From Flagellimonas maritima (GTDB lineage: Bacteria; Bacteroidota; Bacteroidia; Flavobacteriales; Flavobacteriaceae), in NCBI RefSeq assembly GCF_003269425.1, contig NZ_CP030104.1, positions 3,629,001 to 3,693,000 on the forward strand: a stretch of 64,000 nt of DNA. Direction: 5' to 3'. The stretch's first letter is position 1. Every line of letters begins with the position of its first letter. Of this stretch, positions 46,130 to 52,099 are shown piece after piece. The notes under the pieces were generated by a model that was given only the letters and a program-made list of their open reading frames with translations, ran no database searches and was not told where the DNA came from. Both the position numbers and the translations under genes were made by a program.

Positions 46130-46214
46130 GGAGAAATGGCAGAGTGGTCGAATGCGGCAGTCTTGAAAACTGTTGAGGGTCACACCTCCGGGGGTTCGAA
46201 TCCCTCTTTCTCCG
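46130..46214 (+). tRNA. tRNA-Ser(UGA)
   Basis: 85-nt class II tRNA. Acceptor arms GGAGAAA (46130-46136) and TTTCTCC (46207-46213) pair fully; discriminator G at 46214. The anticodon TGA is at 46164-46166 in loop CTTGAAA. A long variable arm and the T-loop GGTTCGAATCC are present. CCA is not encoded. It is the only RNA gene I find in the window. Confidence 0.96.
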
Positions 46215-47734: not shown

Positions 47735-47808
47735 CTTCTATTTTTTACTGCAATTTAATGATAAATATTAGAATGTTTAACTTAAATCTAAAATTGTTAA
47801 ACATTTTG

Positions 47809-47816
47809 TATCTTTA
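47809..47816 (+). promoter_or_regulatory. possible promoter of the photolyase/cryptochrome cluster
   Basis: TATCTTTA, one mismatch from TAnnTTTG, about 56 bp before the first gene of the cluster. Confidence 0.3.
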
Positions 47817-47871: not shown

Positions 47872-48036
47872 ATGTTCGGATTGTTCAAAAAGAAAACGGA
47901 AAAAGAAAAACTACAGGAGGAATACGCAAAACTCATGCGAGAGGCACATGCACTTTCAACATCCAATAGAAAGTTGAGCGACCAAAAGACCTATGAAGCA
48001 GAAGAAGTCATGAAAAAGATAGACCTTTTAAACTAA
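47872..48036 (+). CDS. Lacal_2735 family small protein
   Basis: 54 residues, very charged: it starts MFGLFKKKTEKEKLQEEYAK and continues as a predicted helical hairpin ending EEVMKKIDLLN. The N-terminus and length match the flavobacterial Lacal_2735 family, of unknown function. It ends 15 bp before the DUF2452 gene and is the first gene of a seven-gene run ending with a photolyase homologue. Confidence 0.75.
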   Translation: MFGLFKKKTEKEKLQEEYAKLMREAHALSTSNRKLSDQKTYEAEEVMKKIDLLN

Positions 48037-48051
48037 AGCGAAAAGATTAGG

Positions 48052-48474
48052 ATGTCAGCAGATAAAAAGCCCGACAATGTAGTTTTCAATACTGAAAATG
48101 AAAAATACGACGCCGCTTTAAAGCCTTACGCCACAAATATAGGTGCACCGAGTATCAAAGCGACCGATAGCATTGCCTGGAAAAATAGAAGCATAAACAA
48201 GTTGAACCATAAGGTTCAGACCAAATTCTTGGAGCTAAAGACGGAGTATGAGAAAATGCTCCAGGAATTTGAATACAATAAACTCATTTTTGAAGCTAAA
48301 TTTAGTTTTGAACCTATAGTTGGTGAAATCTATCATCTTTACCAACGGGAGAATGGCGAATCCTTTTTATCCCTAATCGCTCCCGAGCAATGTAATTTTG
48401 ATGCGCTGGGCAGTTTCTACCTAAATGCAGACCAGATATGGCAAAAAGTAACCTCTAACGATGACGAAAACTAG
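48052..48474 (+). CDS. DUF2452 domain protein
   Basis: 140 residues. PDNVVFNTENEKYDAALKPY at the N-terminus, then a coiled-coil-like segment (about 46-80) and a compact C-terminal part with FEPIVGEIYHLYQRENGESF are the DUF2452 pattern. No catalytic motif is visible. It overlaps the next gene by 14 bp, suggesting co-translation. Its role is inferred only from the neighbouring photolyase genes. Confidence 0.82.
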   Translation: MSADKKPDNVVFNTENEKYDAALKPYATNIGAPSIKATDSIAWKNRSINKLNHKVQTKFLELKTEYEKMLQEFEYNKLIFEAKFSFEPIVGEIYHLYQRENGESFLSLIAPEQCNFDALGSFYLNADQIWQKVTSNDDEN

Positions 48475-48748
48475 AAATTTTAGCGAAAGGGAATTGGACC
48501 GAATCATAGAAATGGCATGGGAAGACCGTACCCCTTTTGAAGCTATACTATTTCAATTCGGTTTACTGGAGAAAGAAGTCATTAAATTGATGCGGAGCAA
48601 CCTTAAGGAAAGTAGTTTTAAACGTTGGCGGAGACGCGTGAACAGTGGGGTAAGCCAAAAACATCTAAAGAAACGCAATCCCGAAATCAACCGTTTTAAA
48701 TGCTCCCGACAAAAAGCAATTTCAGGAAATAAAATCAGTAAACGATAA
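48461..48748 (+). CDS. TIGR03643 family protein
   Basis: 95 residues. ELDRIIEMAWEDRTPFEAIL, then FQFGLLEKEVIKLMR and SSFKRWRRRV, are the family's landmarks. The core looks like a helix-turn-helix, and the C-terminus is strongly basic, compatible with nucleic-acid binding. The family is usually encoded beside photolyase/cryptochrome genes, as here. Its stop overlaps the next ATG (TAATG). Confidence 0.85.
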   Translation: MTKTRNFSERELDRIIEMAWEDRTPFEAILFQFGLLEKEVIKLMRSNLKESSFKRWRRRVNSGVSQKHLKKRNPEINRFKCSRQKAISGNKISKR

Positions 48749-49845
48749 TGCTACCTTTTCCCGTTTCCTTTGATGAGATTCTTAACCGTGTCGATTTGGT
48801 GGATCCTGTTGCTTATGGCTCCTCTAGAAATTATATAGATGGAGCGGTAAGTTATTTATCGCCCTATATTTCAAGAGGCGTCATCTCAACAAAATTTGTG
48901 ATGTCCAAAATATTGGAACGTGGACATCATACATACAAAGTGGAAAAGTTTATCCAAGAACTGGCTTGGCGCGATTATTGGCAACAGGTTTGGATAGCCA
49001 AAGGGAATGAAATCAATACCGATTTAAAACACCAACAAACACCGATAGCAAATTGGTCAATACCTAAATCCATAGTAGAAGCGACTACTGGAATAATAGC
49101 GATAGATAATTCCATTCAACAGCTTTATGAAACAGGCTATATGCACAATCATTTGCGGATGTATGTTGCTTCCATTGCTTGCAATGTGGCCCAAAGTCAC
49201 TGGAAAGCTCCCGCGCAATGGCTCTATTATCATTTATTGGATGGAGATTGGGCCAGCAACGCCTTGAGCTGGCAATGGGTAGCGGGTGCCAATAGCAACA
49301 AAAAGTATTATGCCAATCAGGAGAATATCAATACATATTGCCGAACTAATCAAAAGAATACGTTTTTGGATGTTTCCTATGAAACTTTCAATACTAGCAT
49401 GGAAATTCCGGGTAGGTTAAAAGAAACGGAATCCCTAAATCTGAAAACCGAGCTACCTGAAATGGAACCCCTTTCAATCGATGAAAATCTTCCTGCCTAC
49501 ATTTATAATTTTTACAATCTTGATTCCGAGTGGAAAAAGGATACTTCTGCAAATAGGGTTCTGTTGTTGGAACCTTCTCATTTTAAAAACTATCCCGTGT
49601 CTAAAAAATCAATTGATTTTGTATTGGCGACTTCAAAAAATATTAAGAACATACAGATTTATGTAGGTGAATTTAAAGAACTGGTCGCATCACATAATCT
49701 GAAAGACATCCATTTTAAGGAACATCCATTGAATGCACATTACAAAGGCACCGAAGAACCCAGAGATTGGATGTTTAAGGTAGAAGGATATTTCCCTTCC
49801 TTTTTTGGATTCTGGAAAAAATGTAAAAAACAACTTAAATATTAA
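48748..49845 (+). CDS. photolyase/cryptochrome-like FAD-binding protein lacking the N-terminal antenna domain
   Basis: 365 residues. The FAD-binding domain begins almost at the N-terminus: SYLSPYISRGVIS (35-47), FIQELAWRDYWQQVW (68-82), TGYMHNHLRMYVAS (129-142) and LDGDWASNALSWQWVAG (164-180), all typical photolyase C-terminal-domain motifs. The alpha/beta antenna domain that normally precedes them (about 130 residues) is absent. Instead, about 115 residues from 250 onward follow it, with alternating strands and helices (RVLLLEPSHF, IDFVLATSKNIKNIQIYV). That could be a relocated or unrelated Rossmann-like module. DNA repair versus light sensing is undecided. Confidence 0.8.
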   Translation: MLPFPVSFDEILNRVDLVDPVAYGSSRNYIDGAVSYLSPYISRGVISTKFVMSKILERGHHTYKVEKFIQELAWRDYWQQVWIAKGNEINTDLKHQQTPIANWSIPKSIVEATTGIIAIDNSIQQLYETGYMHNHLRMYVASIACNVAQSHWKAPAQWLYYHLLDGDWASNALSWQWVAGANSNKKYYANQENINTYCRTNQKNTFLDVSYETFNTSMEIPGRLKETESLNLKTELPEMEPLSIDENLPAYIYNFYNLDSEWKKDTSANRVLLLEPSHFKNYPVSKKSIDFVLATSKNIKNIQIYVGEFKELVASHNLKDIHFKEHPLNAHYKGTEEPRDWMFKVEGYFPSFFGFWKKCKKQLKY

Positions 49846-49853
49846 AATCATAG

Positions 49854-50480
49854 ATGCACTATACCAGCGAAGACATTAAACAATTGGATAAAGTAACCCG
49901 CTTAAAAATCATTAATTCGGTTACGGGTATAAAGCCTGCCAATCTTTTAGGTACTATAAATAATGAAGGACTAACGAATCTCGCCGTATTTAGTTCCATT
50001 ATACATTTGGGCAGCAATCCTGCATTATTGGGTTTTATTGTAAGGCCCACTGGCGAAGTACCTAGGCATACCTATGAGAATATTAAGGAAAATGGTTCCT
50101 ATACCATCAACCACATTCATCCAAAATTTGCGGAGAATGCCCACTATACTTCCGCTAAGTTCGATGGGAATATATCCGAGTTTGAACGCTGCGGCTTCAC
50201 CGAAGAGTTTATAGCCGATTTTAAAGCGCCGTTCGTGAAGGAAAGTACATTCAAGATGGGAATGCATTTTAAGGATGCCATCAATATTCCGTTGAACGGG
50301 ACCATTATGGTCATTGGTGAAATTGAACATCTTATTTATCCAGATGATGCGATGATAGCGGACGATATTGACTTGGAAGCTTCCAATAGTGTCGGAATAT
50401 CTGGGCTGAACAGCTATTATTCCCTAAAAAAAATCGGGAAGTACCCCTACGCCAGGGTTAATGAAACTCCCGAATTTTAA
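49854..50480 (+). CDS. flavin reductase-like FMN-binding split-barrel protein
   Basis: 208 residues of the flavin reductase domain type: [26 protein letters not shown] (from about 25) forms the FMN-binding strands, and [20 protein letters not shown] contacts the phosphate. The next ATG overlaps its TAA. In this cluster it might supply or hold reduced flavin for the two FAD photolyase homologues; that is inference. Confidence 0.82.
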
Positions 50481-50611
50481 TGCATAAAAAACAACATCTT
50501 CCAGAAAAAGTCTGCCCTGTTTGCGAACGTCCTTTTTCGTGGCGAAAGAAATGGGAAAAGAACTGGGAAGCGGTTAAATACTGTAGCGAGCGCTGCAGAA
50601 GACATAAGTAG
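50480..50611 (+). CDS. DUF2256 zinc-ribbon-like protein
   Basis: 43 residues with four cysteines, C12-P-V-C15 and C35-S-E-R-C39, surrounding an aromatic/basic segment ([16 protein letters not shown]). This is the complete DUF2256 pattern. It overlaps the flavin reductase stop by one base (TAATG) and ends 3 bp before the photolyase gene. DUF2256 genes commonly neighbour cryptochrome/photolyase genes. It is easily missed because of its size. Confidence 0.88.
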
Positions 50612-50614
50612 AAA

Positions 50615-52099
50615 ATGAAAAGCGTACATCTTATTTTTCCCCATCAATTGTTTGAAGCATCTCCCCTATTTGACATTTCGGCACCTATTTACTTGGTGGA
50701 AGAATACCTGTTTTTTAAACAATACCCGTTTCACAAACAGAAAATAGCGTTTCACAGGGCTTCTATGAAATCTTATGAGGCTTTCTTAAAATCGAAAAAA
50801 TACGAGGTCATCTATGTGGAATCCATTGATGAAATATCGGATATTCGAAAATTGATTCCAAAATTGTCCGAAGAAGGTGTAGAACATATCAATTACATAG
50901 ACCCAACAGACAATTGGCTGGAAAAAAGGATTCTGCAGGCTTGTGCAGCATGTAACATCAGCACAAAAAAGTTTGAGTCTCCACTATTTCTAAATTCAAA
51001 AGATGACCTTGTTTCTTTTTTTAGAAAAGATAAGAAGAAGTACCACCAGACCAAGTTTTATATAGATGAGCGAAAAAAACGTTACATCCTTTTAGACCCT
51101 GGTGAAAAACCCCAAGGGGGAAAGTGGACGTTTGACAAGGAGAATCGAAAAAAATATCCTGCAAAAAAAATACCGCCACCAGTACAATTTCCGGATGTTG
51201 ATGAATTCTATAGGGAAGCCAAAAATTATGTGAAAAAACACTTTTCCGACCATTTGGGAGAACTTACGGAACACGCCCTATACCCAACAAATTTTGAAAC
51301 GTCCAAAGCGTGGCTCAATCAGTTTTTTGAGCATCGCTTTATGGAATTTGGTACTTACGAGGATGCCATAGTAGCTGAGGAGTCCATTCTCAATCACAGC
51401 GTTCTGACACCAATGTTGAATGTTGGGCTATTAACGCCCTCCCAGATAGTCGATGCAAGTCTGGACTATGCAGAAAAAAATAATGTTCCCATAAACTCCA
51501 CAGAAGGTTTTGTACGACAGATTATTGGGTGGCGCGAATTTATCAGGGGCATGTACGAAGCTCGTGGCACCGATGAGCGAACATGTAATTTCTGGGGATT
51601 CACCAGAAAAATTCCAGCATCATTTTATGATGGCACAACTGGGATATACCCCGTGGACCAAACCATAAAAAAGTTATTAAAGTCTGGTTATTCCCATCAT
51701 ATAGAGCGATTGATGGTGCTTGGAAACTTTATGTTGCTCTGCGAATTCGACCCAAACGAAGTGTACAGATGGTTCATGGAACTATATATTGACGCGTATG
51801 ATTGGGTCATGGTGCCTAACATCTATGGAATGAGCCAGTTTTCAGATGGTGGGCTAATGGCGACCAAACCCTATATAAGCGGCAGTAATTACCTAATGAA
51901 GATGAGCAACCACAAAAAAGGCGAATGGCAAGAAGTATGGGACGGTATGTTTTGGCTATTTATGGATACACATAGGGATTTTTTCACCCAAAACCCAAGA
52001 TTGGGTATGCTCGTTGGCACTTTGGATAGAATGTCTGCCGATAAGAAAGAACGTCTTTTCAATAAAGCAGAGGGATACTTGTCAAGCTTGGAAAGCTAA
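50615..52099 (+). CDS. PhrB-type (FeS-BCP family) photolyase/cryptochrome without the Fe-S cysteines
   Basis: 494 residues. The fold matches the prokaryotic (6-4) photolyase/CryB group: N-terminal antenna domain (VHLIFPHQLF), SHHIERLMVLGNF with the conserved His pair (361-362), and WVMVPNIYGMSQFSDGGLMATKPYISG (397-423). In Agrobacterium PhrB four cysteines bind a 4Fe-4S cluster. Here the aligned places (about 345, 434 and 437, and the following loop) hold Tyr/Pro, Lys and Glu, and the loop itself is short (SNHKKGEWQEVWDG). The only cysteines are 110, 113, 324 and 376. So the cluster is probably absent. Last gene of the operon. Confidence 0.88.
   Translation: MKSVHLIFPHQLFEASPLFDISAPIYLVEEYLFFKQYPFHKQKIAFHRASMKSYEAFLKSKKYEVIYVESIDEISDIRKLIPKLSEEGVEHINYIDPTDNWLEKRILQACAACNISTKKFESPLFLNSKDDLVSFFRKDKKKYHQTKFYIDERKKRYILLDPGEKPQGGKWTFDKENRKKYPAKKIPPPVQFPDVDEFYREAKNYVKKHFSDHLGELTEHALYPTNFETSKAWLNQFFEHRFMEFGTYEDAIVAEESILNHSVLTPMLNVGLLTPSQIVDASLDYAEKNNVPINSTEGFVRQIIGWREFIRGMYEARGTDERTCNFWGFTRKIPASFYDGTTGIYPVDQTIKKLLKSGYSHHIERLMVLGNFMLLCEFDPNEVYRWFMELYIDAYDWVMVPNIYGMSQFSDGGLMATKPYISGSNYLMKMSNHKKGEWQEVWDGMFWLFMDTHRDFFTQNPRLGMLVGTLDRMSADKKERLFNKAEGYLSSLES

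Follow-up and report, generated by a model that had tools for sequence, protein, structure and literature searches.

The association of photolyase genes and gene clusters with rhodopsin in Flavobacteriia was noticed earlier (PMC2668756, PMC5932025), although the accessible parts of these reports give no gene-by-gene anatomy, operator, regulator or shared mechanism. According to the accessible part of another report, photolyase genes occur among the light-induced targets of MerR/LitR relatives (PMC5241685). More than one photolyase in a single operon, as in the locus described here, was found in Synechococcus sp. PCC 7335; the available text names only two earlier photolyase operons, and presents this one as a UV-B-induced pair of photolyase genes without the accessory families encountered here (PMC9649867). 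Each of the enzyme families, the LitR principle and the photolyase clusters of rhodopsin-bearing Flavobacteriia are already known. In this study, we analysed a stretch of 64,000 nucleotides of Flagellimonas maritima DNA (the window; C1:3629001-3693000 of the 3.77 Mb single-contig genome, NZ_CP030104.1), which bears an operon of seven genes, G1 to G7, encoding two photolyase-family proteins (G4 and G7), a flavin reductase-like protein (G5) and members of the Lacal_2735 (G1), DUF2452 (G2), DUF2805 (G3) and DUF2256 (G6) families. The main new result is the operator TGTTTAA-N16-TTAAACA upstream of this operon. No earlier description of the operon anatomy, of the operator or of its link to LitR was found in the literature searched, which mostly did not include subscription papers.

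The operator, an inverted repeat proposed to be the LitR site, is present in its exact form at 47774..47803 of the window (+ strand), and was overlooked in an earlier, sequence-only reading of this DNA. Five base pairs after it begins a -7 promoter box, TATCTTTA (47809..47816, + strand; consensus TAnnTTTA/G); for flavobacterial sigma-A, the accessible part of a published study places the -7 box TAnnTTTG at -12 to -5 (PMC9723704). With the box so positioned, the -33 region falls within the operator, a position suited to a repressor. A scan for promoters of the sigma-70 type gave no information (14 found, 14.2 in shuffles). When up to two mismatches were allowed, three operator matches were detected in the window, and since 15 of 100 shuffles reached this number, only the exact operator counts there. 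Enough upstream sequence was available for 77 of 81 regions (80 fetched loci and the window); the operator was exact in 30 of these and had at most one mismatch in 45, while shuffled sequences gave 0.5 per 77. At the latter threshold, it was present in 33 of the 39 upstream regions in which Lacal_2735 is the first gene. When spacings from 0 to 40 were scanned, 30 of 32 inverted repeats had a spacing of 16, and at positions 6, 7, 10, 11 and 12 past the operator T, A, T, T and T were found in 30, 31, 32, 32 and 30 of 34 sequences, respectively.

Exact operators were counted five times in the whole F. maritima genome, 48 times in 21 relatives and 46 times in 99 Bacteroidota genomes, with 0, 5 and 6 sites, respectively, for the reversed-pattern control; congeneric genomes cannot be taken as independent in these counts. 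Ten of the 41 sites of the 99-genome set lying outside F. maritima had a photolyase at a distance of no more than 5 kb (binomial p 7e-13). The 48 sites in relatives adjoin the first gene of a class I photolyase operon (11), the gene of a fasciclin protein (10), bcp (5, in four cases with nth), folE (3) and phytoene-desaturase-like genes (2), as well as rhodopsin/blh, an ECF sigma gene, TspO and DUF2256. Pfam was used to check a representative of most of these groups, and the rest were named by likeness; the class I photolyase itself was seen behind the operator and the first gene in the F. maritima genome only. The rhodopsin/blh operator bears one mismatch in F. maritima and is exact in one relative (L215). 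Families of the operon that have moved elsewhere also occur with the operator, as flavin reductase-DPRP (L287), DUF2256-photolyase-DPRP (L286), Lacal_2735-DUF2452 (L285) and DUF2452 (L284).

Some of the sites show further features. The fasciclin protein is a conserved lipoprotein of about 500 aa with fasciclin domains; the exact operator precedes it, by 14-23 bp in those loci that have an evident start (L193, L209, L211, L223, L227, L228, L233, L239 and L246), and in several loci it adjoins mnmA. Beside bcp (L195, L208, L230, L236 and L242), the exact operator lies in four of five cases between this gene and the divergent nth (endonuclease III), so that the proposed regulon also takes in peroxide defence and base-excision repair. 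A weak, single imperfect site with one mismatch (L252:6482-6511, corresponding to C1:70481-70510 of F. maritima) has on one side a cobalamin riboswitch with a TonB receptor whose nearest relatives are B12 receptors, and on the other a divergent Peripla_BP_2/FecCD transporter operon; here, uptake of B12 may be subject to the B12-dependent regulator.

The best candidate for the regulator acting at the operator is a LitR-like protein encoded at C1:2832492-2833391, one of the two MerR_1 proteins of the genome, in which PF13411 (MerR_1) was recognised with 49 bits and PF02607 (B12-binding_2) with 47 bits. It aligns with CarH (3whp), and W, E, H and a second H are kept in 18 of 18 genomes (19 rows, as F. 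maritima was entered twice); these amino acids, the second H as the lower ligand, are presumably the residues around cobalamin. Its gene starts a carotenoid operon, in which the crt names were given by eye. A MerR_1 and B12-binding_2 protein before carotenoid genes, with cobalamin-side residues kept, resembles the CarH/LitR regulons; the difference is that the targets here include rhodopsin/blh and the seven-gene photorepair operon. In 15 of 18 homologues, and in 13 of 13 of the genus, an operator-like site overlaps the start codon of litR; in three distant genomes exact operators are found directly after litR. Among the 21 relatives, a LitR homologue was present in all 16 with exact sites and in two of the five without them (Fisher p 0.0075, kinship ignored).

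The reading we favour, with a probability of roughly 0.75 for the proposed mechanism as a whole, is that of a light-induced photorepair operon repressed by LitR. In the dark, adenosylcobalamin-loaded LitR would bind the operator and block the promoter. Light would destroy the cofactor, LitR would release DNA, and the operon would then be transcribed together with further photoprotection genes, among them those for rhodopsin and carotenoids. G4 would repair cyclobutane pyrimidine dimers (CPDs), in single-stranded DNA as judged by its family, and G7 would repair (6-4) lesions; G5 may keep the flavin (flavin adenine dinucleotide, FAD) reduced, and DUF2256 and DUF2805 might be photolyase-linked helpers of unspecified chemistry. 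The flavin-reducing role of G5 and the helper role of the two small families are the weakest points of the mechanism. The pattern of sites suggests that one B12-based light sensor may turn on the whole sunlight response, comprising the photorepair operon, the light-driven pump and pigment genes. If this holds, the association between photolyases and rhodopsin would follow from an operator common to both and a B12 photoreceptor candidate, an explanation that is testable in culturable strains. Only tentatively would we extend this to marine Bacteroidota in general, where a single B12-controlled regulon might couple, via TGTTTAA-N16-TTAAACA, rhodopsin phototrophy, carotenoids, several photolyases, folE and perhaps B12 uptake, with DUF2256 and DUF2805 as accessory factors dedicated to photolyases, serving access to lesions or the loading or reduction of flavin, and kept under the switch despite reshuffling of the operons.

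Several observations weigh against regulation of the operon by LitR through this operator. At most one mismatch being allowed, the operator is missing from 32 of the 77 upstream regions, and moved DUF2452 genes have it in two of nine loci and lack it in seven. The sites at the litR start differ from the operator at two positions (at one in L271), and as part of each is coding sequence, their conservation may owe something to conservation of the protein. At up to two mismatches, 77 sites were found in the F. maritima genome and 84 with the control; as there is no excess, imperfect sites alone mean little. Genomes without LitR (G012) keep clusters of DUF2256, DUF2805 and photolyase genes, which indicates that the cluster is independent of LitR. 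Finally, the operator is unlike the LitR-family site TGTACA-N12-TGTACA, given for the class II LitR of Pseudomonas in the accessible part of the report (PMC9758184).

The seven genes form a real, conserved operon, which is most likely a photorepair operon rather than an unknown sensory complex. All are located on the + strand of the window: G1 (Lacal_2735 family/DUF6435, 54 aa, 47872..48036; NF033487 88 bits, PF20027 40 bits), G2 (DUF2452, 140 aa, 48052..48474; PF10504 50 bits), G3 (DUF2805, which is TIGR03643, 95 aa, 48461..48748; PF10985 117 bits, TIGR03643 113 bits), G4 (NewPHL/SPL-like photolyase of inverted domain order, 365 aa, 48748..49845; FAD_binding_7), G5 (flavin reductase-like protein, 208 aa, 49854..50480; PF01613, Flavin_Reduct, 55 bits), G6 (DUF2256, 43 aa with CxxC...CxxxC, 50480..50611; PF10013 80 bits) and G7 (prokaryotic (6-4) photolyase without the [4Fe-4S] cysteines, 494 aa, 50615..52099; PF04244, DPRP, 186 bits). 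These profile matches bear out the family names proposed in the sequence-only reading, and its description of seven + strand genes with overlaps or gaps of 17 bp or less agrees with the measured distances of 15, -14, -1, 8, -1 and 3 bp. An Rfam search gave no match inside the operon.

Conservation of gene order, proposed there as a check across Bacteroidota, was assessed in 80 fetched loci with a G4 orthologue. The best-matching neighbours of the F. maritima genome are Flagellimonas strains, with 81-82% identity of G4. Flanks of at least 2.5 kb on the upstream and 5 kb on the downstream side were available in 60 loci, and 20 with shorter flanks were dropped. The gene families accompany the G4 orthologue more often than by chance: nearby on the same strand, the 60 loci contained DPRP in 50 cases, DUF2805 and DUF2256 in 48 each, Lacal_2735 in 40, flavin reductase in 34 and DUF2452 in 33. 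DUF2805, DUF2256 and DPRP were found together in 43 of them and all seven families in 16; in eight, neither DUF2256 nor DPRP was near the G4 orthologue. One more photolyase-family gene was included in the gene set in 36 of the 60. The usual order in the 80 loci is Lacal_2735, DUF2452, DUF2805, G4, often a further photolyase-family gene, flavin reductase, DUF2256 and G7, and the operon families recur in different orders in other Flavobacteriaceae. A tRNA gene is located upstream of the operon region (46130-46214 of the window, + strand). A conserved protein of about 73-81 aa (MSHMSTSDRV...) is encoded directly 3' of the operator in L237, L240 and L285, and in 15 of 81 loci a member of its family is encoded close to the photolyase operon.

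A further question is whether the small genes have any connection with photolyases, or are passengers of light-regulated operons. The latter possibility, which we consider somewhat improbable, was assessed in the sample of 99 Bacteroidota genomes, where DUF2256, DUF2805 and DPRP are each present in 29 (for DUF2256, 29 matches over the cut-off, with one below it, in G011, dropped; second-domain matches of the same genes, the DPRP of G080, and G026, both genomes without the small families, were left out with no effect on the counts). DUF2452 fits the passenger explanation, as it is found within 4 kb of a photolyase in one of ten cases, that one being the present locus, and Lacal_2735-DUF2452 occurs with an amine oxidase under an operator of its own (L285). 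DUF2805 also lends it some support, with 11 of 32 genes within 4 kb of a photolyase and 21 away from one. On the other hand, DUF2256 is this close to a photolyase in 22 of 29 cases (about 0.65% expected), and of the 29 genomes with DPRP, 27 share DUF2256 (Fisher p 1e-19) and 25 share DUF2805. Moreover, DUF2256 and DUF2805 recur in photolyase clusters of different order (L101, L106 and L288). Of the sequence-only interpretation, the compactness and conservation of an operon built around two FAD proteins of the photolyase family are borne out, as is a strong tie of DUF2256 to photolyases; the defined seven-part complex is not, since the figures for DUF2452 and DUF2805 and the full set in only 16 of 60 loci show that the seven genes are not an obligate unit.

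Some properties of the accessory proteins may be added. The model of G3 consists of four helices (residues 9-62) and a basic tail (predicted local distance difference test score, pLDDT, 75.7), and a fold search with it returned no PDB match at E <= 0.001. Of solved structures, 3fge is the closest to G5 (197 bits); it is itself a putative flavin reductase. DUF2256, the family of G6, was placed in the TRASH metal-binding clan, as given in the accessible part of the report (PMC4047054). In L288 (G087, C2:556000-569000), the exact operator is followed by a run of 13 same-strand genes, among them an ABC1/UbiB-like kinase, flavin reductase, DUF2256, three photolyase-family genes, DUF2805, SDR and TspO. 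Two genomes without DPRP and DUF2256 (G020 and G024) have divergent DUF2805 copies (76-77 against 99-129 bits), which may represent a separate lineage of this family with a different role. For DUF2256 and DUF2805, both large uncharacterised families, the present findings provide a concrete setting for experiments.

As regards the regulator, it is unlikely that the operator serves a protein other than LitR, of the oxidative-stress, ECF/anti-sigma or TetR type. The presence of the operator before nth/bcp, the fasciclin protein and the ECF sigma gene would fit an oxidative-stress regulator, and the operator is in some relatives followed first by the gene of a 226-aa protein, TetR-like by eye but with no NCBIfam match. 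The sites at the litR start and directly after litR, and the distribution of LitR homologues among relatives with and without exact sites, speak against such a protein. The sequence-only reading also considered a blue-light sensing system. A complex of this kind, with G4 and/or G7 as cryptochromes signalling through DUF2805 (helix-turn-helix-like) and flavin reductase, is very improbable and also unneeded: two FAD proteins and a small basic helical protein do share one operon, but residues E71, W74, R75, N134, D165, D167 and N171 of G4, which we take to lie on the FAD/substrate side, are kept in 54 of 54 sequences, the helix-turn-helix nature of DUF2805, often located away from photolyases, is only presumed, and light sensing is better assigned to the separate CarH/LitR-type candidate, whose operator lies upstream. 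In favour of a sensor one may quote RsCryB, a relative of G7, which the accessible part of the source reports as a cryptochrome of R. sphaeroides (PMC9178010).

Returning to the photorepair operon, we note that the claim that none of its products has an assigned biochemical role needs correction, as G4 and G7 fall in families with characterised photolyases. G4 had been called antenna-less; the N-terminal alpha/beta antenna domain is indeed missing and the FAD domain is N-terminal, but the structure model contains a C-terminal alpha/beta domain (strands and helices at 250-364, pLDDT mostly >90), which rules out a bare photolyase FAD domain. Two tryptophans, W152 and W175, are invariant in the 54 sequences, while the column of W103 is variable (H16, T11, Y8, N6 and others), leaving no third conserved tryptophan there; the equivalence of these positions to those of the E. 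coli enzyme is assumed. The FAD domain in first place, the C-terminal alpha/beta domain and the tryptophan dyad all resemble NewPHL/SPL photolyases, to which G4 was likened by layout and published descriptions. For this group, the accessible texts describe inverted topology and CPD repair in single-stranded DNA (PMC13274461, PMC9426592), and a tryptophan dyad in the D. shibae protein (PMC8948257). G4 is accordingly classed as NewPHL/SPL-like, with putative CPD repair in single-stranded DNA by family. A circularly permuted version of the N-terminal domain of G7 within G4 was rejected as a separate claim; the match between the C-terminal region of G4 and that domain is too weak (34 residues in BLAST, E 0.002 in a one-sequence search), and the inverted layout has already been described.

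G7 belongs by its sequence to the prokaryotic (6-4) photolyases and lacks the cysteines of the iron-sulphur cluster. It gave 261 bits with 7ykn and 258 bits with 3zxs, both solved (6-4) photolyases, and like the FeS-BCP type it has the DPRP domain (PF04244, E 1.6e-54), a full-length match (7ykn, E 2.6e-76 over residues 6-494) and the HH motif. It differs in the absence of the four [4Fe-4S] cysteines: compared with the solved structures, the first is replaced by Phe378, and the loop with CxxC and the last cysteine are deleted. Among 93 DPRP rows from the loci, one of them partial and some being truncated copies of one gene, the four-cysteine motif is kept in 10 of 92 scorable rows; where the locus has a NewPHL gene, it is absent in 72 of 73 rows and present in one. 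Cluster-less (6-4) photolyases are known as subgroup M, with PromaPL, from the accessible part of the source (PMC9178010), and G7 is likened to them by description. DUF2256 as a substitute for the lost cluster was considered and rejected, as this family also occurs alongside cluster-bearing DPRPs (L077 and L106). The function of the cluster in (6-4) photolyases is still called unknown in the accessible part of a further report (PMC12082625), and the clade of G7 offers a natural comparison set for it.

The F. maritima genome encodes further photolyase-family proteins. One of 435 aa has its best matches among the models of class I CPD photolyases (TIGR03556, 358 bits), with crypto_DASH at 230 bits, under the cut-off. 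The CRY-DASH of this genome is a 469-aa protein (431 bits, over the cut-off). The best solved relative of a third, of 499 aa, is the Drosophila (6-4) photolyase. A protein of this type is encoded inside the operon in many relatives, where the classes of extra photolyases are rough, these having been found with the 435-aa and 499-aa proteins as seeds and not with the 469-aa CRY-DASH. In F. maritima itself, the genes of CRY-DASH and of the 499-aa protein adjoin each other (L006:10477-13382, C1:274-277 kb).

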